Assembly (NCBI RefSeq): GCF_016803395.1
Contig: NZ_JAEVHL010000001.1
Location: 1-64,000 of the forward strand
Direction: 5' to 3'
Source: Micromonospora tarensis
GTDB taxonomy: Bacteria > Actinomycetota > Actinomycetes > Mycobacteriales > Micromonosporaceae
Length of the DNA stretch: 64,000 bases
The first letter of the stretch is position 1; every line of letters begins with the position of its first letter. Below the pieces are notes generated by a model that worked only from the letters and a program-made list of their open reading frames with translations, was not told where the DNA came from and ran no database searches. The position numbers and the translations under genes were made by a program. Of this stretch, positions 5,444 to 24,354 are shown piece after piece.

Positions 5444-5538
5444 GGAAGGTGCCTCCCTCGAACGGGGATGCCGCCGGTGGCAGCATCTGATTATCGGGCG
5501 TCGCGCGTGGTTGATCGACGCTCGTCACGGCGCAACGG

Positions 5539-5808
5539 TCAAGTCGCCGGCGGTCGGCGGTTTGGGTGGGTGGCGGTGAGGACGGCGATGATCGCGGTCA
5601 CGGATACCCGGTAGCGGGAGCCGATTTTGATGACCGGCACCGGCAGAGTGTCGGCTTGCGCCATGGCATAGGCGGTGGAGCGGGGCAGTCCGAAGATCTG
5701 CCCGACGGTGGCGATGTCGGTGACGGTGCCGAGCGCTCGGATTTGATCGATGGTCCAGTTGAGGTGATCGGGGGTCGACGGGCTGGCTGGTGAGGGCTGG
5801 GAAGTCAT
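5539..5808 (-). CDS. xis: excisionase-like helix-turn-helix protein
   Basis: 89 residues with a MerR/excisionase-type winged helix-turn-helix: TVTDIATVGQIFGLPRSTAY, then AQADTLPVPVIKIGSRYRVS. The motif of a regular helix-turn-helix followed by a wing with P-V-x-K-I-G-x-R-Y/W is typical of HTH_17 proteins. Such proteins bend attachment-site DNA with the integrase during excision, and may also repress it. It lies directly upstream of the integrase, as in most actinobacterial integrative elements. AAAGG precedes the ATG. The Pro/Ser-rich first 15 residues are probably disordered. Confidence 0.85.
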   Translation of the reverse strand: MTSQPSPASPSTPDHLNWTIDQIRALGTVTDIATVGQIFGLPRSTAYAMAQADTLPVPVIKIGSRYRVSVTAIIAVLTATHPNRRPPAT

Positions 5809-6390: not shown

Positions 6391-6957
6391 TTAGGTTGTC
6401 ATCGCCAGGACGTGGTGGGTCATCTCGGTCCAAGCGACGCCGAGCGCGTTGGGATGGTCGTCGAAGCAGAGCGCGAGACAATGTCCGCCAGAGCCGTCGA
6501 TGAAGGCGTAGGTGACCGTTGGTTGGCGCGCCGCCGCTTGATGGGTCTCTATGACGAGGCTCCACCGGTCGCCGTGGAGTACGACCGCAGCGCGTTCGCC
6601 GCGCAGGTTCCGGCCTACACGTATAGCAGCGGGCGTCGGTGCGGCGACGAGTTGTAAGGCCTCGTCGATGATCGTGGTTATCCGGGGGATTTCGTCGACC
6701 GGTGCGGTCAGGGCCAGAACTGGGAAAAGGCTCGGCCGGCCGGTCCGGGCGGCAACGGTCAGCCCGGTGGCGAGTTGGTCCGCTACCCGCCGTCGGTGTC
6801 GTTGGGTGACCGTGAGGGTGGGGAGGTTGATCGTCGCCGGTCGTACGGTGACGACCGGCCAGCTGAGGTTGTCCCGTTGGCGCGGGTTGCGCGACGCGTG
6901 ACGCGCCGATGATCCGGTCGTGGGCGGCAGGTCGTCGGGGCGGTCGGTCTTAGACAT
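6391..6957 (-). CDS. uncharacterised protein
   Basis: 188 residues. A basic, Pro-rich first 45 residues is followed by an alpha/beta-looking domain with several hydrophobic strands: SLFPVLALTAPVDEIPRITT, ERAAVVLHGDRWSLVIETHQ and TVTYAFIDGSGGHCLALCFD. The C-terminus ends WTEMTHHVLAMTT. GAAGGACGAGAA sits immediately before the ATG, giving a good ribosome binding site. The start overlaps the end of the small gene upstream by 8 bases, so the two are probably translationally coupled. No known motif is visible. Confidence 0.6.
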   Translation of the reverse strand: MSKTDRPDDLPPTTGSSARHASRNPRQRDNLSWPVVTVRPATINLPTLTVTQRHRRRVADQLATGLTVAARTGRPSLFPVLALTAPVDEIPRITTIIDEALQLVAAPTPAAIRVGRNLRGERAAVVLHGDRWSLVIETHQAAARQPTVTYAFIDGSGGHCLALCFDDHPNALGVAWTEMTHHVLAMTT

Positions 6958-7189
6958 TTCTCGTCCTTCGTGAGCATCGTGGTGTCGGGTCCAGCTCCAC
7001 AGCCGATGTCGACGCGAAGTCGGTCGTTACGTAGGCGCCCCTGTTGGCGGCTTCGAGGTCGGGCTCTGTGCGTGTCCGGTGCTGTAGCTGCTGCAAGCCG
7101 CGTAAGTGCTTTGCACCCACAGGCCGCGCGGTGAGAACACGCCGCGCTAGCCGCCGACGAGTGCAACCGGCAGAGATCAAGGGTGACAA
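6950..7189 (-). CDS. possible small basic protein, TTG start
   Basis: A 79-residue frame starting at TTG (7187-7189), with AAGGA 8 bases upstream, that overlaps the next gene's start. Its sequence is Arg-rich at first, then LEAANRGAYVTTDFASTSAV and a basic tail. An ATG at 7267 would extend it by 26 residues but lacks a good ribosome binding site. GC at third positions is moderate, so the call is tentative. The competing frame from ATG at about 7203 is Cys/Ala-rich and has poorer spacing. Confidence 0.35.
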   Translation of the reverse strand: MSPLISAGCTRRRLARRVLTARPVGAKHLRGLQQLQHRTRTEPDLEAANRGAYVTTDFASTSAVELDPTPRCSRRTRNV

Positions 7190-7309
7190 CGGACATTCCT
7201 TCGGTAGTGGGGTGGGTTGTGTCGGCAGCAGCGGGTGGGCGCACGACGTAACTTGATGGGCGCCCACCCTGAGGGCTGGCTTCGGTGTCGAGGTGACGAG
7301 GGGCGGGCG

Positions 7310-7762
7310 TCAGCGCGGCGGTTGCCAGCGGAGGCGGGCGATGTGGTCGACGCCGTGGTCGCTGCGGGGTCGGGCAGCGCGGGACCAGCCGGGTGTAGGC
7401 GGCCGGGTGGCGACGACGCGCCACCCGGCCGCCCGCAGGCTGGCCCCGGACTCGCCCTGTTGGGTGTAGGTGACCAACCGTCGGTAGCCGAGCGCTTTCG
7501 CGGCTCGCCAGGCGGCGCCGTAGAGCATGCTGCAGCCGTTCCGAGCGGTGTCGGCGACGGCGACGCGGGTGACTTCGAGGGTGTGGCCGTCGTCGAGCAT
7601 CCGCGCGACGGGCCGGCCGACCACCGCCACCCCGACGAGAACGTCGTCCTGGGCGATGCCGAGGGAGAACTTGTGTCCTCGGGGCGGGCGGTGGTGGCGA
7701 TGCCAGTCGGTGATGAATTCGCCGGCCTGAGCGAAGGTGACTGGAACGAGGCGCAGGCTCAT
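7310..7762 (-). CDS. XF1762 family protein (GNAT-like)
   Basis: 150 residues beginning LRLVPVTFAQAGEFITDWHR-HHRPPRGHKF and continuing SLGIAQDDVLVGVAVVGRPV, then LEVTRVAVADTARNGCSMLY. It then has AAWRAAKALGYRRLVTYTQQ and GESGASLRAAGWRVV. This order matches XF1762-type proteins, GNAT-fold proteins found mostly in phages and mobile elements, where a role in base modification or recruitment has been proposed but not established. The start overlaps the upstream methyltransferase stop by ATGA, so the genes are coupled. It is the last gene of the DNA-modification block before the small uncharacterised genes. Confidence 0.8.
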   Translation of the reverse strand: MSLRLVPVTFAQAGEFITDWHRHHRPPRGHKFSLGIAQDDVLVGVAVVGRPVARMLDDGHTLEVTRVAVADTARNGCSMLYGAAWRAAKALGYRRLVTYTQQGESGASLRAAGWRVVATRPPTPGWSRAARPRSDHGVDHIARLRWQPPR

Positions 7763-8915
7763 GTCGTGTCCTGCGCCAGGTGTGGACGTAGCCGGGTGAT
7801 GGCCTCGTGGTGGAACTGCTCGGCGATGTCGATGCCGAGGTAGCGCCGGCCGAGGTGCATCGCGGCAAGGCCGGTGGTGCTGGCGCCGGAGAACGGGTCG
7901 AGGACCACGCCGCTGGCTGGGCAGCCGGCGGCGATCGCCCGTAGTGGCAGGTCGATGGGGAACGGCGCGATGTGGGAGCCGCGGTAGGGGCGGGTGGCGA
8001 TGCGCCACACGTCACCGGGGTTGCGGCCCCGGACGTGTGCGGCGGTGTGGGCGTGCCCGAGCGGTTTGAGGTTGCCCGCCGAGGCGCGTGGCTCGGCGGT
8101 GTTGGTGGCGGCGTACTTGCTGCCGTAGGCGGTGGCGCCTCGGCGGCGGGCGGTCGCTCCGATCCCGCCGGTGGCGCCCTTGCGGGCGCGCCGATGACTC
8201 GGCTGCCGTCGGCCGCCGCTGGGTGCGCCAGCGGTATCCGGATGGGGTCGAGGTCGAAAAAGTAGGTGGGTGATGGGGTGAGCAGGAACAGCAGTTCGTA
8301 GGTGGTGGATAGGCGGTCGCGGACAGACTCGGGCATCGGGTTGGTCTTGGACCAGATGATCGCGTTGCGCAGCCACCAGCCGTCGGCTTGCAGCGCGAAC
8401 GCGACCCGCCAGGGCACGCCGATGAGGTTTTTCGCCGCAAGGGTGTCCTGCGCGCGGGGGTTCGCCGGTCGTCGGCCTCCTGGCTGTGGCCGGCCTGCTT
8501 GGGGTGCGCCGCCGGAGGCGCTGCTGTAGCTGTCGCCGAGGTTGAGCCAGCAGGTGCCGGTGGGTGTGAGCACCCTGCGCACTTGGCGGAATACGTCGAC
8601 CAGCCGGTCTATGTATTTGTCGAGGGTGGGTTCGAGTCCGTACTGCGGATCGGACCATCGGGCGGGGCATCGCCGGCAGGTGGCGCCGTCGACCCGACGG
8701 CTTGCGTCGTGCGGGCAGTAGGAGTTGCCGCCGCTCCAGCGGCCGGTGCCGTAGTCGCGCAGCCCCCAGAACGGGGGTGAGGTGACGACGCAGTCGACGG
8801 ACGCCTCGGACATGGCGGTCAGCACCTGCCGGGTGTCGCCGAGGTAGAGGGTGATTGGCCCTTCCTGGTGGTACTGGTATTCAGCCAGACCCACCGGGCG
8901 GTGATCTTCGGTCAT
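7759..8915 (-). pseudogene. beta-class DNA amino-methyltransferase (N4-C or N6-A), one frameshift
   Basis: The first frame (8915 to about 8190) contains ITLYLGDTRQVL and the catalytic motif IV VDCVVTSPPFWGLRDYG. It also has a Cys/His knuckle (CPHDASRRVDGATCRRC) and PTGTCWLNLGDSY. A second frame carries on with GDVWRIATRPYRGSHIAPFP, then motif I VVLDPFSGASTTGLAA and RRYLGIDI. Motif IV before motif I defines the beta order of SAM-dependent DNA amino-methyltransferases, about 385 residues in all. The frames meet at 8180-8195 in a GC-rich stretch where one or two bases are wrong. The ATG at 8913-8915 overlaps the C5-methyltransferase stop (ATGA). The two parts are otherwise complete, so an assembly error is as likely as decay. 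Confidence 0.85.
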
Positions 8916-10305
8916 GACGGTGCCTGCCAGCGGTGCGGGCACAGCAGCAGCCGCAGCGCGGCTGCTGCCTGCTGGGGGACGACGCCGTTACCCAAGACCC
9001 GCAGCGCGAGGGTGCGCGGCAAGCCCAGCGTGGGGTCGGTGACGTGGCCCTGGTTGAGGCCCATCAGCCATTCCACGAACGGTGGGGCGAGCACGGGCTT
9101 GCCGTGCTGCCCGGCCTGGGTCGGTTCCGGTGCGCCTCGGCCGAGTAGCAGCTCCCACCGGGCGATGGCGGCGGCGTAACCGCCCCACCGGTGCTCGTCG
9201 AGGTCGCCGAGGCCGGCGACGGTGGTGCGCAAGTCCGCCCCGCCGTCGCCGTGGCGTCCCGGGCCGCGCCCGTCGGACGCGCGGGGTGTGGGCAGGGTGC
9301 GGGTGGGTACCCGCACCGCCGCCGACGGCAGGGTGAGATCGCCATGCGAGCCGCGCTGCCCCGGGCAACCTTTCGCTCCGTCGGTGGCCCTGGGGGTGGG
9401 CAGCAGCACCTGCGACAGCGGGGGCCGGAACCCGGCCCCCGCCTTACGTCCGGGGGTGCCGGTGTCGCTGGCCCTCGGGGTGGGCAGCAGCCGGGTGGCG
9501 TCGGTCAGCGTCCGGCCCTGGTGATCGATCGGCGTGACGCGGCCGGCGGTGACGTTGGCCGAGGATCGGCTGTCCGCCACCGTCGGCGTTGGCATGAGCT
9601 GCCCGGCGACGCCAGCCAGGCTCGGCCGGCGGGTCGCCCCGGCGGACGGGGACTTGTTCGACCCGTATGCCACCGCGGTGGGGGTGGGCAGCAGGCCGTG
9701 GGTGGAGCCGGACGGTTCGATCAGGTCGGGTAGCCCGTACTGGTGCCCGGGGCCCTTTCCGTCACGGGCGCACGGTGTCGGCAACGTCCGCACCCCCTCG
9801 GTGAGGTTCTGCGGGTGTGGCCAGCAGGAACAGTCGGTCGCGGCGGTGCGCGGCGCCGATGTCGGATGCGCGTAGGCACGTCCAGCTCGTGTCGTACCCG
9901 AGCGTGGCCAGGTCGCTTCGACGACGTCGAAGCCGCGGCGGAGGAGCGCGGCGACGTTTTCCACGAAAACGAGCGGCGGTCGAAGGTGGCGAACGGCGTC
10001 GGCGACAGCGCTCCACAGGCTGGAGTGCGCACCGGTGATGCCGGCTCGTTTGCCGGCGTTGGAGATGTCCTGGCAGGGGAAGCCGGCGGTGAGGATGTCG
10101 ACGGGTGCGACGGTGCTCCAGTCGACGGCACGGATGTCGCCGAGGTTCGGGACGTCGGGCCAGTGGTGGGCGCAGACGGTGGCGGCGTGTCGGTCGGTCT
10201 CGGCGTACCAGGTGAGCTGGCCGCCGAGCACCAGCTCGACGGCCATGTCGAGGCCGCCGTAGCCGGTGCACAGCGATCCGATGCGGGGTGGGAGGTGCCG
10301 GTCAA
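8912..10305 (-). pseudogene. dcm: DNA cytosine-C5 methyltransferase with PTPR repeats, several frameshifts
   Basis: The enzyme would methylate cytosine at C5. Visible motifs in order are motif I RIGSLCTGYGGLDMAV, motif IV VDILTAGFPCQDIS with the catalytic Cys, motif VI PPLVFVENVAALL, and motif VIII HRRDRLFLLA, which lies in a different frame. There follow six repeats of (L)LPTPRASD type and the C-terminal RTLALRVLGNGVVPQQAAAA (motif X). The TTG at 10303-10305 overlaps the upstream stop as TTGA, but its frame must gain one C within about 25 bases to reach motif I. Two further shifts lie near 9917 and 9833, flanking motif VIII. The repeats occupy the region where the target-recognition domain is expected. 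Confidence 0.85.
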
Positions 10306-11192
10306 TCGCGCACCTCCCGCCCCGGCGCGACCGATGAGTCGGGCGTTGGCTCGGTGGCCGTGTCTGGGTGGGGACAGGTCCACGGCCCGCACCCCGGCAC
10401 ATCCGTCTGCGCCTCAGTCCTGGGGCGGAGGGTGACCTGGTCGAGGGGGACGCGCTGGCGGTGCAAAAAGAACTGCCCCCGCAAAGGCTGCCCGGCGGCG
10501 TTGGCCCGCGCCGACCCGTGGCGGATCGCCGCGTCGAACGCCACTGCGTCGACCCATCCGGTTGGGTCGTCATGGCGCAACCGCACCCACTCCGCGTCGG
10601 TGCGGAACGGGCATCCCACGCACGCGCTGCGCGGGGTGTCCGCCCACCCGTGCGCGGCGAGGTAGGCGAGGCAGTCCTTGCGCCGCCAGCCGAGATCGAG
10701 CAGCGGGAAGACGTTGCGCATGTAGGCGACGTCGGCGTCACGGGCCCGGCCGATCTCGTCCAGGCTGATTCCGATTGCCATCTCGGCGATCACACCAGCG
10801 GGGACCCGGGCGGGGTGCGGGTAGCCGAGGCGGCGCCGCACCTCCACCTTGATCGGTTTGATCTTGTACTCGCCCGTGCACTGGCGGCGTGCCATGCCCC
10901 GCTCGCCGTTGGGTCCCAGGGTGAACAGGGGCATTGAGGCGAAGCGGTGGTCCGGATCGAGGGCGTCGCGGCGGATGTCACCCGCCGCGACCCGCACGAC
11001 CGGAATCCCCGATACGGCGGCCAGCTGCTCCAGTCGGCGCAGATGGGCGTAGACCGCGGCCGGTTCCCAGCCGGTGTTCGCGAAGATCGCCGCGTCGAAC
11101 GTAGGGACCTTGCCATGCGCCGCGAGCAGCAGCAGAGTGGAGCTCTGCACGCCGGCGCCGAGGCTCAGGTATCGGTGGGTGGGTATCTTCAC
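10302..11192 (-). CDS. PAPS-reductase/ATP-pyrophosphatase-like enzyme
   Basis: 296 residues of the N-type ATP pyrophosphatase fold (phosphoadenosine phosphosulfate reductase-like family). The PP-loop is RYLSLGAGVQSSTLLLLAA, a G-x-x-S-S variant. It is followed by DAAIFANTGWEPAAVYAHLR and IPVVRVAAGD. Cysteines occur at RRQCTGEYKIKPI, SACVGCPFRTD and CGPWTCPH, which could hold zinc or iron-sulfur. Homologues in phages and mobile elements sit next to DNA methyltransferases, and related DndC-type proteins move sulfur into DNA. Its true substrate is not known, and assimilatory sulfate reduction is unlikely in this context. It overlaps the neighbouring genes by 4 bases on both sides, so it belongs to the modification operon. 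Confidence 0.75.
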   Translation of the reverse strand: MKIPTHRYLSLGAGVQSSTLLLLAAHGKVPTFDAAIFANTGWEPAAVYAHLRRLEQLAAVSGIPVVRVAAGDIRRDALDPDHRFASMPLFTLGPNGERGMARRQCTGEYKIKPIKVEVRRRLGYPHPARVPAGVIAEMAIGISLDEIGRARDADVAYMRNVFPLLDLGWRRKDCLAYLAAHGWADTPRSACVGCPFRTDAEWVRLRHDDPTGWVDAVAFDAAIRHGSARANAAGQPLRGQFFLHRQRVPLDQVTLRPRTEAQTDVPGCGPWTCPHPDTATEPTPDSSVAPGREVRD

Positions 11193-12172
11193 GCGATCAC
11201 CCCGCCCTCGGGGGTGTTCAGGATCGGTGAACCCGGGTCGCCGCCCGGCTGGCGGAAGATCAGCACGTCCTCATGGGTGATCAGGTGCAGCGGGATGCCG
11301 CCGGCGCGGGCCTTGCGCACGGCTTGGAGTTGGAAGAACGACGGCCGGGCGACGAGCTGCCCGTCGCGTACCGCCGCGAGTAGCGCCACGCACCGTTCGG
11401 TGGGCACCAGGCCGGCGCGGACGCCGGCGGCGATCACGGCGCTGGGCAGGTCGACCAGTTGCCCGTGCTTGCGCCACGGCCGGGCAGTAACCACGACGGT
11501 GCCGCCGGGCCGCAGCAGGCCCGCGCAGCCGCGCAGGATCCGCTCGAACCCGTCGGCGAGTCCGGTGAGGTCACGGTAGGCGAGGTTCCCGCGGTCGGCG
11601 CCGTCGTTGTAGGCGTTGTCGAACTTCGCCACCCCGTCCTCGCCGGGTCGGACCAGACCGTGCACGGTCGGCCCGTACGGCGGCGAGGTGACCACGAGAG
11701 CGACCTGTCCCGCCAGAGCGGCGGGCAGGAGGGTGGACAGGCGGGTGGCGTCGCCGCGGACCACCGACGCCCTGCCGGTCGCGCCGTGGTGGTGGGCGTG
11801 GGTGATGTTGGCGTCGGCGATGTTGGACCAGCGCGGCTCGTACTCCACGCCGATGGCGTCGCGGCCGGCATGGATGGCCTCGACGAGGGTGGTGCCGATC
11901 CCGCACATCGGGTCGAGGACCAGGTCCCCAGGATGGGTGTAGGCGTGCACCGCGTGCGCGGCGATGGCCGGGAGCATCCGGGCCGGGTGCTTGACCGACT
12001 CAGGCACGTACCGGCCGCGGCGCTGCACTGGCCCGGTGCGCTGGGCGGTCGCCCACACCGACAGACCTTCCGGCTGCGCGGAGTGGCGCCGAGCGCTGTC
12101 GCCCAGGGTGGAGTCCTGGGTCGGCTCCTGAGACTCGGCGGGAGAAGCGGTGTGCTCAGCCACGGCTCTCAC
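11189..12172 (-). CDS. DNA methyltransferase, TRM11-like/amino-methyltransferase fold
   Basis: 327 residues. Residues 1-55 are a polar leader. Then come KHPARMLPAIAAHAVHAYTH, motif I GDLVLDPMCGIGTTLVEAIH, the acidic motif II AIGVEYEPRW, RGDATRL, and motif IV ALVVTSPPYGPTVHG. The catalytic SPPY follows motif I, the opposite order to the neighbouring beta enzyme. The protein ends with RPGGTVVVTARPWRKHGQLV and a strand-rich C-terminus. This is a SAM-dependent methyltransferase acting on exocyclic amino groups, most likely in DNA given the context. The start lies inside the end of the upstream methyltransferase-like gene and the stop overlaps the next gene by ATGA. Confidence 0.8.
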   Translation of the reverse strand: MRAVAEHTASPAESQEPTQDSTLGDSARRHSAQPEGLSVWATAQRTGPVQRRGRYVPESVKHPARMLPAIAAHAVHAYTHPGDLVLDPMCGIGTTLVEAIHAGRDAIGVEYEPRWSNIADANITHAHHHGATGRASVVRGDATRLSTLLPAALAGQVALVVTSPPYGPTVHGLVRPGEDGVAKFDNAYNDGADRGNLAYRDLTGLADGFERILRGCAGLLRPGGTVVVTARPWRKHGQLVDLPSAVIAAGVRAGLVPTERCVALLAAVRDGQLVARPSFFQLQAVRKARAGGIPLHLITHEDVLIFRQPGGDPGSPILNTPEGGVIA

Positions 12173-13051
12173 CGCCGATGTGGCGCTGCGCGCGCGCCTT
12201 GTTCGCGGGCGAGAACACGAGCAGGTCCGCGTGGACCCGAACGTGCGCCACCCAGTGCGGATGGGTCAGGGTGAGCAGTTCCTCGTCGGTGACGTGGTAG
12301 ACGAACGCGTCGCCGTCGGTGTCGGCGCCGACGGCGACGATGTGCTGCAGGTAGCCCAAACCCACCTGCGCGGCGGCGGTGGCCACCGGGGTGAAGTCCT
12401 CCAGGCCGCCAGCTGCGGTGGGAACGGTGACGACCAGGACGAGGCAGCCGCCGAGGCGCAGCAGCCGCGCGCACTCGCTCAGCAGCCACGCCAGCCGGAC
12501 CCGGTTGGTGGTGCCGTCGGGGTCAAGCGGCCAGCAGGCCACGACCAGGCTCGTCGCCTCGCCGAGGGACGTGGGACCGTCTGCTGCGGTGGTGCGATCG
12601 GTGGGCGGTTGCCCGTCGGTGAGGTCGTCGCCGAACCATGCGGTCATGTCCGGAAGGCCGTCGCCCTCGCCCTCGTCGCCGTCGTCGCTGTCGTCGAGGG
12701 CGGCGGGATCGGGTCGCGCCGGCGGGGTGGCTGGTCCGATGATCAGGCTGGACGCGTCGGTGAACCAGCCCGGGTGGTGTCGCCGGCGCCCGCGGCGCAC
12801 ACGGCGCTCAGGGCGTGATCGGCGGTGAGGTCGACCACGACCTCGCCGGGGCGGGTATAGGCGGCGACGAGCCGGTAGGCCAGGCGGGCGCCAAGGCTAC
12901 GCCCGGCGTCAGCCGGGCCGTGGGCGGTGCGCCACACGGTCACGGGCACCGGCGGGTCGCCGGCGATCACGTCGATCAGGGTCGGGTCGACCGCGCGCGG
13001 GTCGACGGGGTGGATGGGGTGCTGGTGGTGCTGCGGCGTGTGCTCGCTCAT
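12156..13051 (-). pseudogene. methyltransferase-like protein with degenerate motif I, one frameshift
   Basis: The frame from ATG 13051 encodes VPVTVWRTAHGP and RLAYRLVAAYTRPGEVVVDL, then TADHALSAVCAAG, where a G-x-G SAM-binding loop would be expected. A second frame continues with RRRHHPGWFTDASSLIIGPA and an acidic spacer (LDDSDDGDEGEGDG). It then has TTNRVRLAWLLSECARLLRL and GGCLVLVVTV, as in a methyltransferase core, and HVRVHADLLVFSPAN. The two join near 12775-12785 if one base is restored. The motif I residues are altered and no SPPY is present, so it may be a non-catalytic partner of the downstream enzyme. It is the first gene of the modification operon and starts 30 bases after the conserved 70-bp element. 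Confidence 0.65.
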
Positions 13052-13080
13052 GTGGTGTCGGCTCCACGCCGCGCATGCAG

Positions 13081-13150
13081 TGCGCTGACACTTGTAAACC
13101 CGCGCCTGTGTGCTCTGGCGAACGCCTGTCAAACTCACAGCCGCTCACAA
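13081..13150 (-). promoter_or_regulatory. 70-bp control element, copy 1 (reads toward the methylation operon)
   Basis: Read on the minus strand, this stretch matches 15488-15557 on the plus strand at 58 of 70 positions. The invariant blocks are two TGTGAG units 10 bp apart, GACAGGCGTTC, CCAGAGCACACAGGCG and TTTACAAGTG. It ends 30 bases before the first gene of the methylation operon. It is probably a promoter/operator shared with the conjugation operon. No canonical -35/-10 pair is obvious. Confidence 0.7.
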
Positions 13151-13888
13151 CATGGCGGCGACCGTGCTGTGCGCAGTCGGTGGATACCTCCCCGCTCACC
13201 GAAGAGAAGCCCCGTGGACGTCGGCAGCGAGGCACAGGACAGCACAGCCGCACCGCGGGGCGCCTGGTCATCGACAGCCGGCGATGACGCGAGCCGATGA
13301 CAAACTGTCCGCAGCGCGCTGATGCGACTCGTGGTGACAGCCCTAAAGCCGTCCTTGTCCTGTCCGACAAAGTGGCCGGGCCGACGCGCCGCAGCGTCAC
13401 AGGCGGCGTCATCGCCGGCCGGCGGCGGCGTGGCCGCGACCGCGTCAGGTACCACGCCGATGCCTGCCGCGCGCATTCGTGACCGATGTCAACGTCCTGC
13501 TCACGAGCACCTGCGGACATGATGTCAACGACAAGGTTCAATGCCAGGATGACCGCTTGCCACGGGGCGGTGTCATCGCCGACGGTGGCGGCGCCGCTGC
13601 GGCAACCTGTTAGCCGCGAGCGTTGCCAATCTGTCCAAGGCATCGAAGCAGACCGTTGACATTGTCATTGTGGCAGGGGGTGCCGGACACGTCGGCGGCA
13701 CCCGGAAGACGGCCACGATGGCGCGCCCAGCGCGCGGTCGTCATGTCACTTCGGCCACGCCGACGTCCTCGCCGGACAGGATTGCGGGAACCGCCGCGAA
13801 GCCGTTCGGCCGGCGCCCGGACGCGGCGCGACGACGGGTCGAGGACTCCGTCGTCATACACACGTCTCGGCAGGCCGCTGCGCGCGGC
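13151..13888. other. intergenic gap
   Basis: About 740 bases between the control element and the decamer array without a convincing gene on either strand. No RNA gene seen. Confidence 0.5.
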
Positions 13889-14103
13889 TGTGAGCCGCTG
13901 CGCGCGGCTGTGAGCCGCTGCGCGCGGCTGTGAGCCGCTGCGCGCGGCTGTGAGCCGCTGCGAGCGGCACGACGGGCCGCTGTGAGCGTCTGTGAGCGGC
14001 ACGGACAGGCCGCTGTGAGCCGCTGTGAGCCGCTGTGAGCCGTTGTGAGCGGCACGACGGGCCGCTGTGAGCGGCTGTGAGCGGCACGACAGGCCGTTGT
14101 GAG
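13889..14103 (+). repeat. phased TGTGAG decamer array
   Basis: Thirteen TGTGAG copies start at 13889, 13909, 13929, 13949, 13981, 13991, 14014, 14024, 14034, 14044, 14066, 14076 and 14098. The first four are exact 20-bp repeats (CTGTGAGCCGCTGCGCGCGG). Others are 10 bp apart, and GGCACGACGGGCCG-type spacers recur. The one-helical-turn spacing suggests cooperative binding of a protein on one DNA face, as in iterons or operators. Confidence 0.8.
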
Positions 14104-14257
14104 AAGCGCGGCGAAACCGGGGCCGTGTGGGTTGGATTGTCGCTCACAGTCCTGGTCAGCGGGTCGCGCGGCAACGAGCGCCACCACCGAAGGTGGCACC
14201 GACGCGCAGCCACCCCCACCGGAGTGAGGAGCACCTCTGACAGCGGCAGAGGCGCGC

Positions 14258-14283
14258 TGACCTGCGCTGTGAGCGTCTGTGAG
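14258..14283 (+). promoter_or_regulatory. TGACCTGCGCTGTGAG box plus second TGTGAG
   Basis: TGACCTGCGCTGTGAG at 14258-14273 is followed 10 bp later by another TGTGAG at 14278, 80 bases upstream of the sigma-like gene. The 16-base box recurs on the opposite strand at 24153-24168 and, with one change, at 24297-24312. It is a likely operator. Confidence 0.6.
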
Positions 14284-14362
14284 CCACGCCTGTCCTAATC
14301 GGTTGCTCAGACGTCGCCCAGGTCGGCGGCGACACCGAGATCGACTCCGAGGAGTGGCAATC

Positions 14363-15226
14363 ATGAGCACGACTTCAACGCAGTGGCCGCAGTCCCCGCT
14401 GGACGCCGCCGAGGTGGCGTTCGCGGCGTTGACCTGCGACCCCGCGCCCTTGTCAATCGACCTCGACCAGCTCGGCCCAGACGTCGGCCTACCGGCGGGT
14501 GTCATGACGGTGCTGGCGGTGCGCGACTGGCTGCTGGCGCATCGCACGTCCTTCGAGGCACGCGACGCGGTGTGGGTCGAGATGATCCGCCGTGCCCGCC
14601 TGGACGGGCCGCAGTGGGTCATCGGCGCGGTCGGCATGGCCCTGCCAGCGCTGCGCCGCTACACCCGTCAGCTGTGCAACGGCTACCCCGGCGACCCCGA
14701 CGACATCGAGGCGGAGGTCCTCTCCGGGTTCTTGGTAGCGCTGCGCGATCACGTGGATCTCGCCCGGCCCGCCCCCTACGCCGGGCTGTGCCGCGCCGGC
14801 TGGCGCGCCGGGTTCAAGCTGCGCCAGCAGGCGGCGGAGGTCACGCCGGTGGAGGACGTCGAGCACGTCATCGGGCCCCGCACCCCGCAGATTCCCTACG
14901 GGCATCCCGACGTGCTGGTCAACCGCGCCGTGCGGCTCGGCATCCTCGACGCCGACGACGAGCAGTCCTACATCGACGTGCGACTCGGTCGTCGGGCGAT
15001 CGAACCGATCGCCGCCCGGCGGGGCCTGAGCACCGATGCCCTACGGATGCGCCTGGGGCGCATCGACACCCGCATCGCCGAAGCCCTCGCCTCGGGCCTG
15101 CTCACAGGGACGGCATCCCCGCAGGCCGCCGAGGCCCTCGCTCTACAGGCTGAACGACGCAGCAAACTGCGCGCCGCCCGCCGCCCTGCCCGTCAGGACA
15201 CGAGCCAGGCGGCAGCCGCCGCCTGA
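14363..15226 (+). CDS. sigma-factor-like regulator
   Basis: 287 residues. The middle (RRYTRQLCNGYPGDPDDIEA, EVLSGFLVALRD) resembles a sigma-70 region 2 helix pair. The C-terminal part (DADDEQSYIDVRLGRRAIEP, IAARRGLSTDALRMRLGRID) resembles the helix-turn-helix of region 4. The ends are Ala-rich and probably disordered. It may therefore act as an element-encoded sigma factor or a sigma-like transcription activator. GAGGAG lies 9 bases before the ATG. An in-frame upstream ATG at 14279 has no ribosome binding site. It sits between the two 70-bp control elements, next to the decamer array, and is a candidate for the protein that reads them. Similarity to sigma factors is weak, so a different DNA-binding role is possible. 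Confidence 0.55.
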   Translation: MSTTSTQWPQSPLDAAEVAFAALTCDPAPLSIDLDQLGPDVGLPAGVMTVLAVRDWLLAHRTSFEARDAVWVEMIRRARLDGPQWVIGAVGMALPALRRYTRQLCNGYPGDPDDIEAEVLSGFLVALRDHVDLARPAPYAGLCRAGWRAGFKLRQQAAEVTPVEDVEHVIGPRTPQIPYGHPDVLVNRAVRLGILDADDEQSYIDVRLGRRAIEPIAARRGLSTDALRMRLGRIDTRIAEALASGLLTGTASPQAAEALALQAERRSKLRAARRPARQDTSQAAAAA

Positions 15227-15246
15227 GACCCGACCCGCACGCGATC

Positions 15247-15285
15247 CCGCGGCGCCGCACCGGAATTCCGGTTCGGGCGCCGCGG
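15247..15285 (+). terminator. nested palindrome after the sigma-like gene
   Basis: The outer arms CCGCGGCGCC (15247-15256) and GGCGCCGCGG (15276-15285) enclose the perfect palindrome CCGGAATTCCGG (15260-15271). It starts 20 bases after the stop codon, consistent with a terminator. A weaker hairpin (TCGGCTC/GAGCCGA) follows at 15399-15427. Confidence 0.6.
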
Positions 15286-15468
15286 CCTTGTCCACGCCGC
15301 TCGCCGACGGCATCCCCCGGGGAGGGCTGACGAACCTGTCGCGGGAACGCTGCCACCAAACGTAGCGCCGAGGACGAAGCACCGGCGACAAGATCATCTC
15401 GGCTCAGAGAGAACCCCTCGGAGCCGAAACCGACAAAGTGCAGGTCAGGCGCGAGAAGACGGGCTGTG

Positions 15469-15557
15469 TGTGAGCGGCTGTGAGTCCTTGTGAGTCGCTG
15501 TGAGAACGACAGGCGTTCACCAGAGCACACAGGCGGCGGTTTACAAGTGCGAGACCA
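15469..15557 (+). promoter_or_regulatory. TGTGAG tetrad and 70-bp control element, copy 2 (reads toward the conjugation operon)
   Basis: Four TGTGAG units start at 15469, 15479, 15489 and 15499, exactly 10 bp apart. The last two begin the 70-bp element (15488-15557) shared in inverted orientation with 13081-13150. The first conjugation gene starts 284 bases downstream, leaving a long leader without a convincing gene. AGTGCAGGTCA at about 15437-15447 is a partial match to the 16-base box. Role inferred: operator/promoter for transfer genes. Confidence 0.65.
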
Positions 15558-15840
15558 CTTCACCCGCCATCGAGCGGGCGTGACGGTCCCGCCCGCCGCC
15601 AGAGGGCCGGGCCCACACCGGGCCGCCCCACGCACCGGACGTCTCCGGGTGCCGCGCAATTTGGTGCGCTGACACCACACCGAACAGATCGCTACCCGAC
15701 AAGGGAGGACGTGCTCCTCCCGGGGACGGTCGTGCTTCGAGGCGCTGTCCGCGCCCGCGCCCCTCTGGCGGCGGTCCACCCACCCGGACCGCCGACAACC
15801 GCCCCGCCCTTACCCGGCCGGGGCCGGAGGTGAACGCTCA

Positions 15841-16224
15841 ATGTCCCGCATTCCGGCACGTCTTCGTGCCCTCACCCGCTCCCGCACCGCCCGTCAGGTC
15901 GGCCGCGTCGCCGCCGTGACCGGCGAGGTGCTGCTGTTTCTGTCCGTGCCCGCCGCCGCGTACGCCGACACCGGCGTGCCCGTGCTGGCGGCGAACTCCC
16001 TCCCGGTCGTCATCCTCAACCTGCAGATGTGGTTGATCGGCATCCTCGCGGCCGTCGCCACCCTGTTCCTCGTCCTGGCCGGCGTCTACTGGGCCACCGC
16101 CGGAGGAGACCCAGCGCAGGTTGACAAGGCCAAGAGCGCGCTGAAGAACGCCCTGATCGGCTACGGCCTCGCCGTGCTGGCTCCGATCCTGCTCGGGATC
16201 GTCCAGGGCATCGTCGGAGGCTGA
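15841..16224 (+). CDS. type IV secretion pilin (VirB2/TrbC-like)
   Basis: 127 residues. The signal-like N-terminus is basic (SRIPARLRALTRSRTARQ) and is followed by a hydrophobic helix ending VPAAAYA, a probable signal-peptidase site near residue 42. Two further membrane helices follow (MWLIGILAAVATLFLVLAG and ALIGYGLAVLAPILLGIVQG), separated by GGDPAQVDKAKSALKN. This is the layout of VirB2-type pilins of actinobacterial conjugation systems. GGAGG lies about 12 bases before the ATG. It is the first gene of the transfer operon and lies 7 bases before the VirB6-like gene. The product is expected to form the extracellular or envelope part of the transfer channel. Confidence 0.8.
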   Translation: MSRIPARLRALTRSRTARQVGRVAAVTGEVLLFLSVPAAAYADTGVPVLAANSLPVVILNLQMWLIGILAAVATLFLVLAGVYWATAGGDPAQVDKAKSALKNALIGYGLAVLAPILLGIVQGIVGG

Positions 16225-16231
16225 CGCCGCT

Positions 16232-17155
16232 ATGGGAATGAGTTATCTGCTGGGCCAAATCCTCGACTGGATGGCGGCGGCGATCCTCGCGACCCTCGAC
16301 GCGCTGATCGGGGTGATCAGCAGCGCGCTGCTGATCACCCCGGACGTCACGGTCCTGCCGCAGGTGCAGGCCCTGACCGGCCGCTCGATCTGGGTCGTCG
16401 ACACCGCCTTCGTCCTCGCGTTCGTCGCCGCCGGCGTGCTCACCATGACCGCCGGCGGCGGCGAAGCCTCCCAGTACACCGTCAAGGACCTCATGCCGCG
16501 GCTGATCGTCGGGTTCGTCGCCGCGCACTTCTCGCAGCTGTGGTGCCGCATGCTCATCGACCTCGCCAACGCCCTCACCGCAGCCCTGACCACCCCCGAC
16601 GGGGACAGCGACGGCGCGTTGCGGGCGATCAAAACACACATCAGTGCGGGGCAGGACAAGACCGCGGTGCTGTTGTTCGTGGTCTGCGTGGCGATCATCG
16701 CGGTGCTACTCGCCTCGACCGCGTTCAGTGTGATCGTTCGCTTCGCGACAGTGCTGGTCCTGACGGCGTTCGCGCCGTTGGCGCTGGCGTGTCACGCCCT
16801 TCCGCAAACCGATCCGATCGCCCGGATGTGGTGGAAGGCCTACGCCGGGACCCTCGCGGTGCCGATCGTGCAGGGCTTCACCCTGTACGCCGGGCAGTGG
16901 ATGCTCACCGACCCCGACAACCTGCTGCCCGTGCTCGGGCTGCCGGTGGACCCGGGCGGGGTGATCAACCTGTTCGTCGTGATGGTCATGCTGTGGACCA
17001 CCCTGCGGGTGCCCGCGATGATGAAAAGCTTCGTCTCCACCGGCAACGGCCGCGGCGCGAACATGATCGGCGCCGCGGTGCGGGTGGTCGTGGTGCAGCA
17101 GGCCACCCGCTCGATTCCCGGCCTCGGCCGCGGACTGCGGGCGGTGAGCCGATGA
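16232..17155 (+). CDS. TrbL/VirB6-like membrane protein
   Basis: 307 residues with at least six hydrophobic segments, including ILATLDALIGVISSALLI, VVDTAFVLAFVAAGVLTM, VLLFVVCVAIIAVLLAS, FATVLVLTAFAPLALACH and INLFVVMVMLWTTLRVP. The region FAPLALACHALPQTDPIARM, followed by WKAYAGTLAVPIVQGFTL, is characteristic of TrbL/VirB6 inner-membrane channel proteins. The basic tail (SIPGLGRGLRAVSR) would be cytoplasmic. Its stop overlaps the next gene by ATGA, so the PrgI-like protein is coupled. It probably forms the inner-membrane pore with VirB3/VirB4-like partners. Confidence 0.8.
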   Translation: MGMSYLLGQILDWMAAAILATLDALIGVISSALLITPDVTVLPQVQALTGRSIWVVDTAFVLAFVAAGVLTMTAGGGEASQYTVKDLMPRLIVGFVAAHFSQLWCRMLIDLANALTAALTTPDGDSDGALRAIKTHISAGQDKTAVLLFVVCVAIIAVLLASTAFSVIVRFATVLVLTAFAPLALACHALPQTDPIARMWWKAYAGTLAVPIVQGFTLYAGQWMLTDPDNLLPVLGLPVDPGGVINLFVVMVMLWTTLRVPAMMKSFVSTGNGRGANMIGAAVRVVVVQQATRSIPGLGRGLRAVSR

Positions 17156-18111
17156 CCGCCATCGACCGCACCGAGGCAGGCCGTGCGCGGATGCCGTCAG
17201 ACGTGGACGCCCCGGACAAGGTGCTCTATGGGCTGACCTTCCGTCAGCTGGCGATCCTCGCCGTCGCCGCCCTGGCCTTCTACGGCGCGTGGCGTGCCCT
17301 GCACCACCTCGTGCCGGCGCTGGTTCTCGTCGGCGCCGCCGTGGTCCTCGGCGGCCTCGTGTTCGGTGTCGCCGTCGGCCGCCGCGACGGCCTGCCGCTG
17401 GACGTGTGGCTGCTCGCCGCCGTCCGGCACGCCCGGGCGCCGCGTGCGCTGTCGACGACGGACACGACGTCGACGACGCCGGACTGGGTCCAGGCACCGA
17501 AGAGCAGGGTCATGGTGCCGGCGCCGCTGAAGCTGCCCGCCGACGCGATCGACGACGAGGGAGAAATCCGCCTGGGCGGGGCGCGGGCGGCGATGGTCGC
17601 CGCGACCAGCGTCAACCTGGCGCTGCGCACCGCCGACGAACAGGCCGCCCTGGTCGACACGTTCGGCCGGTGGCTCAACAGCCTGTCCACGCCGACGCAG
17701 ATCGTCGTGTCGGCGCAGCCGGTCGATCTGCACTCCGCCGCCACCACGCTGTCGCAGGCCGTGGAGTCGCTGCCTCACCCGGCGCTGGTGGACGCGGCAG
17801 CTGACCACGCCCGCTTCCTCGACGACCTCGCCACCCGGCGGGATCCGCTGCGCCGACAGGTTCTCATCGTCACCCGCAGCAGCGCGGGCGAACGCGGAGA
17901 CCACGCGGCGCGCCGACGCGCCGACGACACCGTCCGGTCTCTGTCTGGTCTGGGGGTCACCACCCGCGCCCTGGACGGGGCGGCGGTCACCGCGGCGATC
18001 GCCGCAGCGGCCGACCCGTACCGGCCCTCACGCCCTGGCGGGCTCGCCGCCCCCGACGCCGTCATCACCGGCCCACACACCCACTCCGACACCAGGAAGA
18101 AGGCACGCTGA
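17152..18111 (+). CDS. PrgI-family (VirB3-like) conjugation protein
   Basis: 319 residues. The N-terminus MPSDVDAPDKVLYGLTFRQL-AILAVAALAFYG fits the PrgI family, whose members carry two close membrane helices (here about residues 28-48 and 52-72). A soluble domain follows, with RVMVPAPLKLPADAIDDEGE, IRLGGARAAMVAATSVNLAL, EQAALVDTFGRWLNSLSTP and QIVVSAQPVDL. This part corresponds to the N-terminal region often fused to VirB4. It is translated from an ATG overlapping the upstream stop and shares one base (TGATG) with the VirB4 start. It presumably docks the VirB4 ATPase to the membrane channel. Confidence 0.8.
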   Translation: MTAIDRTEAGRARMPSDVDAPDKVLYGLTFRQLAILAVAALAFYGAWRALHHLVPALVLVGAAVVLGGLVFGVAVGRRDGLPLDVWLLAAVRHARAPRALSTTDTTSTTPDWVQAPKSRVMVPAPLKLPADAIDDEGEIRLGGARAAMVAATSVNLALRTADEQAALVDTFGRWLNSLSTPTQIVVSAQPVDLHSAATTLSQAVESLPHPALVDAAADHARFLDDLATRRDPLRRQVLIVTRSSAGERGDHAARRRADDTVRSLSGLGVTTRALDGAAVTAAIAAAADPYRPSRPGGLAAPDAVITGPHTHSDTRKKAR

Positions 18112-19901
18112 TGAAACCCCGTAAACGCTCCCGCACGGCTACTGGCGGCCTCCGCCCGCCGTCGTCGCTGGCGGGCGCCGTCACGCCCGCCTCAGTCGAG
18201 GTGACCCCGCGGATGCTGCGCGTCGGCGACGGGTACGCCGCGACCCTCGTCGTCACCGGCTACCCCGCCGAGGTCGGCCACGCCTGGCTGGAGCCGCTCC
18301 TGTCGTGGCCGGGCCGCCTCGACCTGGCCCTGCACATCGACCCGCTGCCCGCACCGATCGCGGCGTCTCGGCTGCGCAACCAGCGCGCCCGCTTCGAGTC
18401 CAGCCGCCGCGCTGGCGCCGAGAGTGGAAAGCTGCCCGACCCCTACGTCGAGGCGGCGGCCGAGGACGCCGCCGACCTGGCCCAGCGCCTGGCCCGTGGT
18501 GCGGCGAAACTGTTCCGCGTCGGGCTGTACCTGACCGTGCACGCCCGCACCGAGGACGAACTTCTGCAGGCCTGCGCGCAGGTGAAGGCCGCCGCCGCGT
18601 CCACGCTCATCGAGGTGCAGCCCGCGACCTGGCGCCACCTCGCCGGCTGGACCACCACCCTGCCCCTGTGCACGGACTCGCTGCAGATGCGCCGCACCAT
18701 GGACACCCAAGCCCTCGCCGCCGCGTTCCCCCTCGCCTCGGCCGACCTGCCCGCACCGCTACCCGGCGACCCACCCGCCGAAGGCGGCGTGCTCTACGGG
18801 GTCAACCCCGACTCGCAGGGCATCGTGTGGTGGGACCGCTGGGCGCAGGAAAACCACAACTCCGTCGTCCTCGCGCGCTCCGGCGCCGGCAAGAGCTACT
18901 TCGTCAAGCTGGAGATCCTGCGCAACCTCTACCAGCAGGTGCAGATCGCCGTCATCGACCCCGAAGACGAATACCTCAGGCTCGCCGACGCCGTCGGCGG
19001 CACCGTGGTACGCCTCGGCGCCACCGGCGTGAAGATCAACCCCCTCGACCTGCCCGCCGGGGACACCCGACCCGACGTGCTGACCCGCCGCGGGCTGTTC
19101 CTGCACACCCTGATCGCCGTGCTCCTCGGCCACCAACCGCCACCGGCCGAACGCGCGGCGCTCGACCGGGCGATCCTCGCCGTCTACCGCCACGCCGGCA
19201 TCACCGCCGACCCGGCGACCCACCACCGGCCCGCGCCGCTGCTGCGCGACCTCGCCGCCCGCCTGGACGACGACAGCGATCCGGCCGCCGGGCAGCTCGC
19301 CGCCCGCCTCGCACCGTGGGTGCAGGGATCGTTCTCCCAGCTGTTCGACGGCCCGTCCACCACCCGCCTCGACGGGCACCTGGTCGTGTGGTCGCTGCGG
19401 CAGCTGCCCGACGAACTGCGCACCGTCGGCACCCTCCTGGCCCTCGACGCGATCTGGCGGCAGGTCGACGCCCCCGGCCGGTCAGCGACCCGGCGCCTGG
19501 TCGTGGTCGACGAGGCGTGGCTGCTCATGCGCGACGGCGAAGGCGCCCGCTTTCTGTTCCGAATGTCGAAAGCCGCGCGGAAACGTCACGCCGGCCTGGC
19601 CGTGATCACCCAAGACGTCGCCGACGTCCTCGGCACCGACCTCGGGCAAGCCGTCGTCGCCAACGCCGCCACACAGGTGCTGCTCAAGCAGGCCCCGCAG
19701 GCCATCGACGCCATCGGCGACGCGTTTGGCCTCACCGCCGGCGAACGCCGGCTGCTGCTCGCCGCCCGCGTCGGCACCGGCCTGCTGATCTCCGGCACCA
19801 ACCGCACCAGCTTCGAGGCGATCGCCTCCAACACCGAACACCAACTCGCCACCACCCGCCCCGGCGACCTGGCCGGCCTCGACGACGAGGAGGACCTGTG
19901 A
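18111..19901 (+). CDS. virB4: VirB4-like conjugation ATPase
   Basis: 596 residues. The N-terminal domain (about 1-230) is the VirB4/TrbE type, with TPRMLRVGDGYAATLVVTGY and RARFESSRRAGAESG. The ATPase domain contains Walker A VVLARSGAGKSYFVK (257-262 core), VIDPEDEYLRLADAVGG and KINPLDLP. Walker B is RRLVVVDEAWLLM at about 462-473, followed by GLAVITQDVADVLG and a C-terminal LLISGTNRTSFEAIAS. All ATPase motifs are intact. It powers pilus or channel assembly and DNA transfer from the cytoplasmic face. It overlaps the PrgI-like gene by one base and the coupling protein gene by GTGA, which indicates a tightly coupled operon. Confidence 0.92.
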   Translation: MKPRKRSRTATGGLRPPSSLAGAVTPASVEVTPRMLRVGDGYAATLVVTGYPAEVGHAWLEPLLSWPGRLDLALHIDPLPAPIAASRLRNQRARFESSRRAGAESGKLPDPYVEAAAEDAADLAQRLARGAAKLFRVGLYLTVHARTEDELLQACAQVKAAAASTLIEVQPATWRHLAGWTTTLPLCTDSLQMRRTMDTQALAAAFPLASADLPAPLPGDPPAEGGVLYGVNPDSQGIVWWDRWAQENHNSVVLARSGAGKSYFVKLEILRNLYQQVQIAVIDPEDEYLRLADAVGGTVVRLGATGVKINPLDLPAGDTRPDVLTRRGLFLHTLIAVLLGHQPPPAERAALDRAILAVYRHAGITADPATHHRPAPLLRDLAARLDDDSDPAAGQLAARLAPWVQGSFSQLFDGPSTTRLDGHLVVWSLRQLPDELRTVGTLLALDAIWRQVDAPGRSATRRLVVVDEAWLLMRDGEGARFLFRMSKAARKRHAGLAVITQDVADVLGTDLGQAVVANAATQVLLKQAPQAIDAIGDAFGLTAGERRLLLAARVGTGLLISGTNRTSFEAIASNTEHQLATTRPGDLAGLDDEEDL

Positions 19902-22438: not shown

Positions 22439-23191
22439 CGGGCGCACCCCTGCCCCGCAGACGCGACCACGGGCACCCAGCGGGCCGATGACGGATCTCG
22501 GTTCCTCGTCGCCGACGCCCAGCGCACCCAGCTTCGCGAAAGGAGGACACACGTCCCTGGCCCAGACAGCACTACTACGCAATTACAGGTCCCTCACCCG
22601 AGGGGCCTCATCGACTCTCTCCCGAGGACACTCACATGTCAGCGCGATCATCGACTCCCGAATGCCAGCCATCCGAGCCACACTGGACACCGCCGACCCA
22701 CCTGTACAGGGCCGGCCGACCGCTCACCGTCCACCGACTGTCCCGGCACCCTCACCGGCCGAGGACAACCCACCTGCCGCACCCGGCGGAGGGCGCAGCG
22801 AGGCAACACCTCGCCCCACAACGACCCACCGCACGAGGGGCTTTCACCACCGTCGCCGGCGTCGACAGCGGCCAGCACGACGCCGCCGCCGCGACGGGCA
22901 GAACCACACCCGCCACGTCACCGACCGCAGGTCCGCACCCCAGACCTCGGCACCCCGCCACCACCCAGGACCGCGACGACCTCGGCCCGTCGCTGTCAGT
23001 GGGCCGCCTGCGGCCTCCGTGTTGGCGTCGGTGCCGCGCCACGGCTTGGGGGCGGTGTGGGTGTGCGTGTAGAGGCGGATACCGACACCGACCGTCCCGA
23101 CGGGCCACATCCGCAGCGCACCGCCGGTGTGCCGACCAATCCGCTCTGCTGCAAAAGACCCTCAGGGGTCTCTCCTGTGGGGGTAATCGCC
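22439..23191. other. 750-base gap between the coupling ATPase and the replication-relaxation gene
   Basis: No convincing gene. Two overlapping Arg/Pro/His-rich frames exist, one from ATG 22636 with CGAGGA upstream, but their codon third positions are much less GC-rich than those of neighbours. A strong AAAGGAGG at 22539-22546 is not followed by any usual start codon. A small hairpin, AGACCC-TCAG-GGGTCT, at 23156-23171 precedes the replication-relaxation gene. Confidence 0.5.
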
Positions 23192-24127: not shown

Positions 24128-24142
24128 CAGCTCGCCGGCTCG

Positions 24143-24354
24143 CTCACAGCCGCTCACAGCGCAGGTCACCGCCCCACCCGCACCTCCATCGGCGGCTGGG
24201 GCGCTCTGGTCTCAGCGCGGCGTCTGTGAGCGGGCCCGCCACTCACAGCGACTCACAGCCACTCACACCAGAAACACCCGCAGCGGCTGTTGATCTCTCA
24301 CAGTGCAGGTCAACCCGCCTGCCGATGGCTGCGGCGGCCCGCCGCCGCTGTGAG
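24143..24354. repeat. TGTGAG/CTCACA cluster downstream of the replication-relaxation gene
   Basis: CTCACA starts at 24143, 24153, 24242, 24252, 24262 and 24297; TGTGAG starts at 24225 and 24349. Neighbouring copies are 10 bp apart. CTCACAGCGCAGGTCA (24153-24168) and CTCACAGTGCAGGTCA (24297-24312) are the reverse complement of the box at 14258. The cluster lies in the 567-base gap before the cargo array. It may be an origin, a transfer site or an operator; the rest of that gap holds no visible gene. Confidence 0.65.

Follow-up and report, generated by a model that had tools for sequence, protein, structure and literature searches.

Why should a mobile element carry the same short sequence twice, in inverted orientation, at the heads of two operons that point away from each other? 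The question is raised by a stretch of 64,000 nucleotides from Micromonospora tarensis (assembly GCF_016803395.1, contig NZ_JAEVHL010000001.1, positions 1-64,000 of the forward strand; hereafter the window), in which positions 13081-13150 on the minus strand (copy A) and 15488-15557 on the plus strand (copy B) are identical at 58 of 70 positions. A first-pass annotation had seen in them one control element placed before a DNA-methylation operon and a conjugation operon. We find the inverted pair to be a conserved feature of a family of integrative elements in Micromonospora, here referred to by locus (L) and genome (G) numbers. Our preferred reading, to which we give a probability of about 60%, is that the copies are co-regulated promoters which, with a regulator encoded between them at 14363-15226, would induce an excision operon and a transfer operon together.

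The coordinates, strands and identity first given for the pair are right, as the next-best ungapped 70-mer match anywhere in the window, on either strand, reaches only 36 of 70, and the invariant sequence blocks quoted with them are present in both copies. The alignable arms measure 80 nt (13071-13150 and 15488-15567) at 81% identity. The phased TGTGAG units described earlier are indeed spaced by 10 bp, but the left copy has two of them and the right copy four. Between the left copy and the ATG at 13051, which opens the first gene of the left operon, lie 29 bases, in keeping with the reported distance of about 30 bp to a methyltransferase-type gene; however, neither of the two open reading frames (ORFs) of this first gene matches a Pfam family at E 0.001, and the methylase match starts at the next gene (11189-12172). 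The right copy leads, as claimed, into an operon for a type IV secretion system (T4SS), with 283 bases between it and the ATG of the pilin ORF at 15841, the first of that operon. When the host genome (7.4 Mb in 532 contigs) was searched with copy A, four matches were found, namely the pair in the window and a second inverted pair on contig C7. An Rfam scan of 12900-16300 gave no match at gathering thresholds.

To see how far the arrangement extends, the element was searched for in 151 genomes of the genus and matched in 34, in many cases with two copies that face outward and lie a few kb from each other. Twenty stretches were picked from this table, mostly for showing two copies, together with four named loci encoding a close homologue of the 14363 protein (all Micromonospora). 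An iterated DNA profile finds the pair in 20/20 stretches, a count that is not independent because the profile was built from these same stretches. A second sample of 20 had a match to the 14363 protein as its only criterion and was picked by hand from different parts of the ranking; 15 encode a homologue of 52-68% identity, four encode one of 29-38%, and L078 duplicates L058. The element is present in all 15 loci with the closer homologue, as a pair in 14 and as a single copy beside a contig end in L060 (one of the 15, L062, had already been matched in the genus search), and the four with the more distant homologue (L074-L077) give no element match at E 0.5. With duplicates dropped before counting (L046 = L055, L057 = L054, L078 = L058), 38 loci with 82 copies were analysed, and 36 show an outward-facing pair, which passes the check, set beforehand, for paired copies and block conservation in related elements. 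The other two (L056 and L060) show one copy. Among the 36 are four loci with four copies each (L041, L047, L049 and L053), in the order minus, plus, minus, plus, where a TGTCAG/TGTTAG-type pair lies beside a TGTGAG-type pair. The copies of L044 are 7.9 kb apart, probably because of a Tn7-like insertion: its sigma-like gene is separated from the plus copy by genes for a Mu-type C-terminal transposase and a TniB-like protein, at 10037-13134 of that stretch.

The genes in front of the copies fall into two patterns, with counts limited to the analysed stretches, which end at differing distances. Twenty-two loci are of the type of an integrative and conjugative element (ICE), 21 by a T4SS pilin match and L056 by methyltransferase-type genes. 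Copy A of these faces matches to the first two methyltransferase-operon genes of the window (c4 and c9) in 21/21, the c4 match lying 107-109 bp from the profile start in 20 cases and at 167 bp in the remaining one, and co-directional matches to an excisionase (xis) or integrase (int) gene follow further on in 11/21. Copy B faces the pilin, always first, and TrbL in 21/21, VirB4 in 15/21 and, within the stretch, Replic_Relax in 6/21. The remaining 16 loci are small and T4SS-less: no match to pilin, TrbL, VirB4, c4 or c9 was found on either strand of the analysed stretches, a copy leads into xis and int in 13 and into Replic_Relax in 14. Where the sigma-like gene is present (L035, L036, L038 and L039), the shared block of these small elements measures about 8.6 kb; where it is absent (L040 and L042), about 5.2 kb.

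The same promoter-like element is common to both kinds of locus, and since the small loci keep the xis-int and Replic_Relax copies and have no c4/c9 methylase-type match, the constant coupling would be one of excision with transfer. The left operon of the window does contain methylase genes, as its first description said, but it extends further, with genes for an excisionase-like protein and a tyrosine recombinase at its far end; the methylase genes sit between copy A and xis-int and, on this comparison, read as passengers that the larger elements carry in their excision operon. The proposal of one regulator for both operons is borne out in so far as one shared, conserved control element stands before each and the pair recurs in relatives; its pairing of DNA modification with transfer is not. 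Nor is there support for the idea that the element methylates itself before moving, given xis-int behind a copy in 13 and a c4 or c9 methylase-type match in none of the 16 small loci. By this comparative reading, methylation before moving gives way to excision coupled with transfer. DNA modification of another kind may recur beside the switch: L039 (13118-16730) carries QueC-, radical SAM-, FolE2- and DUF6884-type genes beyond Replic_Relax, and L048 has the same ORF clusters, a group that we take to be a 7-deazaguanine DNA-modification-like set, possibly cargo.

The anatomy of the copies was counted in 81 anchored sequences; the remaining one (L049, 7980-8053, with an ACACG site) was left out for want of an anchor. 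There are usually two to four TGT(G/C)AG half-sites per copy, spaced by roughly one turn of the helix; they lie at -14 and near -24, and in some copies also at -34 and -44. A -35-like block follows, GYGTTCGCC, written G(C/T)GTTCGCCAGAGC in the 81 copies. The spacer holds a similar half-site in inverted orientation, (G/C)ACA, with ACA at +16 to +18, the invariance of which is partly by construction because the anchor demands ACA. The -10-like block is G-TTT...GTG, with G-TTT at +25 to +29; the TTT is offset from the core by 27 bp in 63/81 copies, by 26 in five and by 28 in one, and was not found in 12. The downstream sequence is side-specific, often GTGTCAGCGC on the excision side and GTGCGGGACTTCC or similar on the ICE transfer side. 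The two kinds of half-site co-vary: a G at the repeat centre goes with a C at the centre of the spacer site in 56 of 57 copies, and a C or T (merged) with a G in 19 of 24 (Fisher p 5e-13, kinship of the copies being ignored). Because of this covariation a single protein probably binds both the repeats and the spacer site. Direct comparison shows which parts a copy has, how they are spaced and conserved, and which genes lie downstream, and from this we infer a role as promoters.

The best candidate for such a protein is encoded between the copies. Pfam and NCBIfam searches with the 14363-15226 product gave no match and sequence searches of the PDB nothing significant: PhyR_sigma2 reached a best E of 0.015, in two of 26 family members, and a sigma factor chain (PDB ID: 5uxx), which we take to be EcfG, scored E 1.3 over positions 95-243, with four unrelated chains scoring better. 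A profile of 54 rows, including 28 homologues from a class-wide search, was compared by hhalign with 16 sigma sequences of the same genome and gave a probability of 94.5% (P 7.7e-8, score 59.6) over 165 columns, collinear over sigma regions 2-4. Controls drawn from seven further families of these elements, from ten column shuffles and from one reversed alignment scored at most 18.2 with the 26-row profile and at most 17.9 (0.4%) with the 54-row profile. The product would accordingly seem to be a diverged sigma-70-like protein, which may bind RNA polymerase; we call it sigma-like and do not file it in the sigma-70 family because there is no significant Sigma70 match in Pfam or NCBIfam. Two proteins had been put forward as candidates for footprinting on the element. 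That at 14363 is a fair choice, being sigma-like and encoded between the copies; the other, the Replic_Relax protein near 23192, is possible, with nothing specific to recommend it beyond its presence.

Beyond the genus, a search of 296 genomes of the class found homologues of the 14363 protein in 46. None was found in the plasmid and phage collections, and 23 pattern matches in viral contigs include no relative of it. Loci of the TGTCAG type occupy two places in the tree of the protein, several deep forks of which are unsettled. Residue 144 is R or K in 13/13 TGTGAG-type rows and M in 9/9 TGTCAG-type or mixed rows, and is one of six columns, out of 315, that separate the two types; the tie between this residue and the operator type, drawn from few lineages, is suggestive only. 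In L048 (G034) the sigma-like gene is split.

Eight of the 16 small loci (L040, L041, L042, L043, L047, L049, L050 and L053) show no match to the sigma-like protein. Three of their genomes (G027, G050 and G056) carry a close homologue elsewhere. The other five have no homologue above 300 bits: G106 and G088 have only distant ones (79 and 165 bits), G038 has no match, and G144 and G148 are absent among the matching genomes. Four of the eight loci carry both TGTGAG-type and TGTCAG- or TGTTAG-type copies. By analogy with known satellites, this suggests that T4SS-less elements without the regulator gene may be satellites answering to the regulator of a helper. For some of the eight, decay is the alternative, as the integrase of L049 is interrupted and L041 retains only a Replic_Relax fragment. 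In L049, L053 and L041 the element adjoins a tRNA-Lys (TTT) gene near the integrase; a repeat of the tRNA-Lys end was not found within the analysed stretch of any of the three.

More distant relatives were represented by 18 stretches (L075-L077 and 15 of 16 further ones; L074 and L132 were left out for having no pilin match). In most of them the homologue adjoins pilin-TrbL-VirB4 genes, often with methyltransferase, xis or int matches in the opposite direction. The rebuilt element profile has no match in L074-L077 or L129-L144 at E 0.1. Three stretches (L076, L077 and L130) nevertheless show a pair flanking the homologue in the same layout, identical at 33-35 of 37 positions against null maxima of 26-27. 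The spelling is unlike that of the Micromonospora element, for instance TTTCCAAT...GTAATCCCCTAGTG in L076, yet the side-specific downstream sequence is alike, and GATTGGAGGGGTG of L130 resembles GATTGGAGGGTG of L072 and L073, as expected if promoter and regulator drift together. L131 and L136 were not counted as pairs, exceeding the null maximum by one match only, nor were L139 and L141, found by a looser inverted-repeat search (about 82% over 38-40 nt) and lying away from the pilin gene.

In the preferred mechanism, both copies would be outward-facing promoters, one for each operon. The 14363-15226 protein would switch on the two of them, acting as a dedicated sigma factor or, seated on the repeats, as an activator of sigma descent. 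The methyltransferase-xis-int operon (excision, with DNA modification as a passenger) and the T4SS-Replic_Relax operon (transfer) would thus be induced together. T4SS-less relatives that keep the pair and lack the regulator gene would probably respond to the regulator of a helper. A broader version, which we hold tentatively and at well below even odds, sees a dedicated sigma lineage of actinobacterial conjugative elements with private twin promoters that would fire excision and transfer together. Operator and regulator would co-evolve into separate codes (TGTGAG and TGTCAG, besides the unrelated ones in L076/L077 and L130), and small satellites without the regulator would carry one or two codes for release by one or two helper lineages.

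Several observations weigh against the mechanism. The sigma assignment rests on profile comparison, with nothing significant from the Pfam, NCBIfam and PDB sequence searches, and the match needs a wide profile: 14 close rows give 5.2% (score 25.9) and 26 rows 80.7% (44.8). The AlphaFold model, from a five-row input, is poor (mean predicted local distance difference test score 51.8), with helices predicted over both sigma regions. Six of the 81 copies break the covariation of repeat and spacer site, and the site and covariation counts are phylogenetically non-independent. L056 shows a single copy although about 3.7 kb of contig follow its sigma-like gene, and 15 of the 18 distant relatives show no pair. 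The four-copy loci have two copies face to face, separated by 85-540 bp in which no intact gene was recognised, an arrangement that a plain promoter reading does not explain. Also left without explanation are the TGTCA(A/T)C repeats that lie between the copies.

The pair might be co-regulated by a different reader of TGT(G/C)AG, either the Replic_Relax protein or a host regulator, acting as activator or repressor, with the sigma-like protein in some other role. Tandem half-sites with an inverted one do resemble the operator sites of a separate DNA-binding protein, and a TGTGAG cluster lies right behind the Replic_Relax gene of the window. Replic_Relax matches are co-directional with a copy in the 14 small loci and behind the six ICE copies B counted above, whereas the sigma-like match is missing from eight small loci, five of them in genomes without a homologue above 300 bits. 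This would leave unaccounted for the presence of the element in every one of the 15 loci picked by the sigma-like protein at 52-68% identity, and the position of the sigma-like gene beside or between the copies of ICE-type loci. L049 and L053 have no Replic_Relax match, two operator specificities within one element (L041, L047, L049 and L053) are hard to explain by a host factor, and the split of residue 144 by operator type points, as a suggestion only, to the sigma-like protein. We regard a different reader as rather doubtful.

Less likely again is that the copies mainly form part of an origin of replication, transfer or partition, with iterons and inverted sites around a non-coding core that the genes merely abut. 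The repeats between the copies would suit such an origin: TGT(G/C)AG occurs 19 times there in the window, in both orientations, with about 1.3 expected, and TGTCA(A/T)C-type 7-mers are 30-48-fold above expectation, summed over 18 loci. However, the conserved block is directional and, on the methylase side, keeps a constant distance to the first gene (distances before xis, at 280-360, and Replic_Relax, mostly 234-676, vary more), and the GTGTCAGCGC of the excision side and the GTGCGGGACTTCC-like sequence of the transfer side are kept in the three distant relatives with another upstream spelling. That the copies are recombination sites of an invertible switch we consider very improbable. In three of 22 ICE-type loci (L051, L052 and L062, a hand count) the sigma-like gene does run opposite to its usual orientation between the flanking operons, with 246-250 bp from its 3' end to a copy, as though the segment between the copies had been inverted; yet a flip leaves the operon of each promoter unchanged, because both copies face outward, the window copies are only about 80% alike, and rare flips fit homologous recombination between repeats.

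Table 1. Location of the paired element and of the surrounding genes in the window
Feature	Position	Strand	Remarks
Copy A, promoter-like element (contains 13081-13150)	13071..13160	-	Faces the methyltransferase-xis-int operon
Copy B, promoter-like element (contains 15488-15557)	15469..15567	+	Faces the T4SS operon; four TGTGAG units spaced by 10 bp
TGTGAG array, many units 10 bp apart	13876..14110	+	Upstream of the sigma-like gene; more units at 14265-14284
Stretch without recognised gene	13165..14270		From copy A to the sigma-like gene; TGTGAG is abundant here, as is a second motif, TGTCA(A/T)C
Sigma-70-like protein (c2), candidate regulator	14363..15226	+	By profile comparison; no Pfam/NCBIfam match; low-confidence fold
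First gene of the left operon (c4)	12156..13051	-	Split by a frameshift relative to relatives
DNA methyltransferase-like gene (c9)	11189..12172	-	N6_N4_Mtase, UPF0020
C5-cytosine methyltransferase-like ORF	8912..10741	-	Covers only the first part of the Pfam profile
N6/N4 DNA methyltransferase-like gene	6783..8942	-	Domain match
Excisionase-like gene (xis)	5539..5808	-	HTH_17 E 2e-5, 25.2 bits (cut-off 27); clusters with xis-like genes of relatives
Tyrosine recombinase (integrase, int)	3981..5528	-	PF00589 E 3.1e-21
T4SS pilin	15841..16224	+	PF18895
TrbL/VirB6-like protein	16232..17155	+	Domain match
ORF with PrgI domain	16540..18111	+	Start overlaps TrbL
VirB4/TraG-like ATPase	18111..19901	+	Domain match
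Replic_Relax protein	23057..24127	+	PF13814; transfer side

The genes of the window (Table 1) are those expected of an ICE, with a tyrosine recombinase and an excisionase-like gene on one side and, for T4SS and coupling protein, pilin, TrbL, PrgI, VirB4/TraG and TrwB-like domains on the other. The left operon runs from c4 and c9 through the further methyltransferase-like genes to the xis-like gene and the integrase, all on the minus strand. The frame of c4, a single gene in relatives, is broken at 12779-12788. Two ORFs probably have their true starts further in, as that at 8912-10741 overlaps ORF 10302-11192 at its start and the PrgI ORF overlaps the TrbL gene. No tRNA genes were found in the window, and no convincing end repeats (att) in three small relatives. 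Directly 3' of the Replic_Relax gene, at 24140-24280, is a dense cluster of TGTGAG in both orientations, within which the DNA profile of the element scored 24218-24267 at E 8e-5; the cluster could be an origin of transfer or a second control site. Between the copies, TTGACAT was seen 22 times with 0.46 expected (window 13165-14270 and the comparable stretches of 17 other loci). Elements that lack the sigma-like gene are likewise enriched in the second motif, TGTCA(A/T)C or its complement, and TGTCAAC/T is absent from four of these 18 inter-copy stretches (L051, L063, L066 and L070).

Known systems offer partial parallels. For the AcaCD regulator of IncA/C plasmids, the available part of one account describes a single master regulator acting on transfer genes and on the xis promoter of SGI1, which carries the same operator as its helper and has a constitutive int (PMC4605294). 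The present case is alike in that the same promoter element occurs in ICE-type and in T4SS-less elements. It differs in that AcaCD is of the FlhDC family and gammaproteobacterial, whereas the candidate here is actinobacterial and sigma-like and was therefore not filed as an AcaCD-type member; in addition, an inverted promoter pair here surrounds the regulator gene, and int follows xis in the same direction. A similar picture emerges for SetCD of SXT/R391 ICEs, which, in the excerpt at hand, induces the integrase and excision-factor genes of MGIVflInd1, a satellite that is quiescent without its helper (PMC5704250); that regulator is of an unrelated type, and the excerpt does not mention paired inverted promoters.

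With ECF-like (extracytoplasmic function) members of the sigma-70 family the candidate shares a collinear profile match in regions 2 and 4 and fixed-spacing promoter-like sites near its gene; it differs in being too diverged for Pfam/NCBIfam and in having an extra N-terminal part of about 80 residues. Actinomycete integrative and conjugative elements (AICEs) of the pSAM2 type transfer by a TraB/FtsK-type protein, whereas the present element has a T4SS. The two are alike as actinobacterial integrative elements with an element-encoded activator, here putative, for xis and int; in pSAM2-type AICEs this is Pra, which, according to the part of the source available, controls the repSA-xis-int operon (PMC3218068). 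The accessible portion of a paper on conjugation control in Gram-positive bacteria contains no sigma-like ICE regulator (PMC6540685), and the titles and abstract openings of the open-licence papers that full-text searches returned announce no twin-promoter or sigma-like switch in actinomycete T4SS-type ICEs.

How these ICEs decide to leave the chromosome appears to be little described. From the comparisons made here, leaving the chromosome and moving to another cell are probably switched on together. If so, one small protein and two promoters of about 100 bp would explain the coupling of excision to transfer, DNA modification would belong to the same programme as both, and the operator codes would predict which helper releases which satellite.

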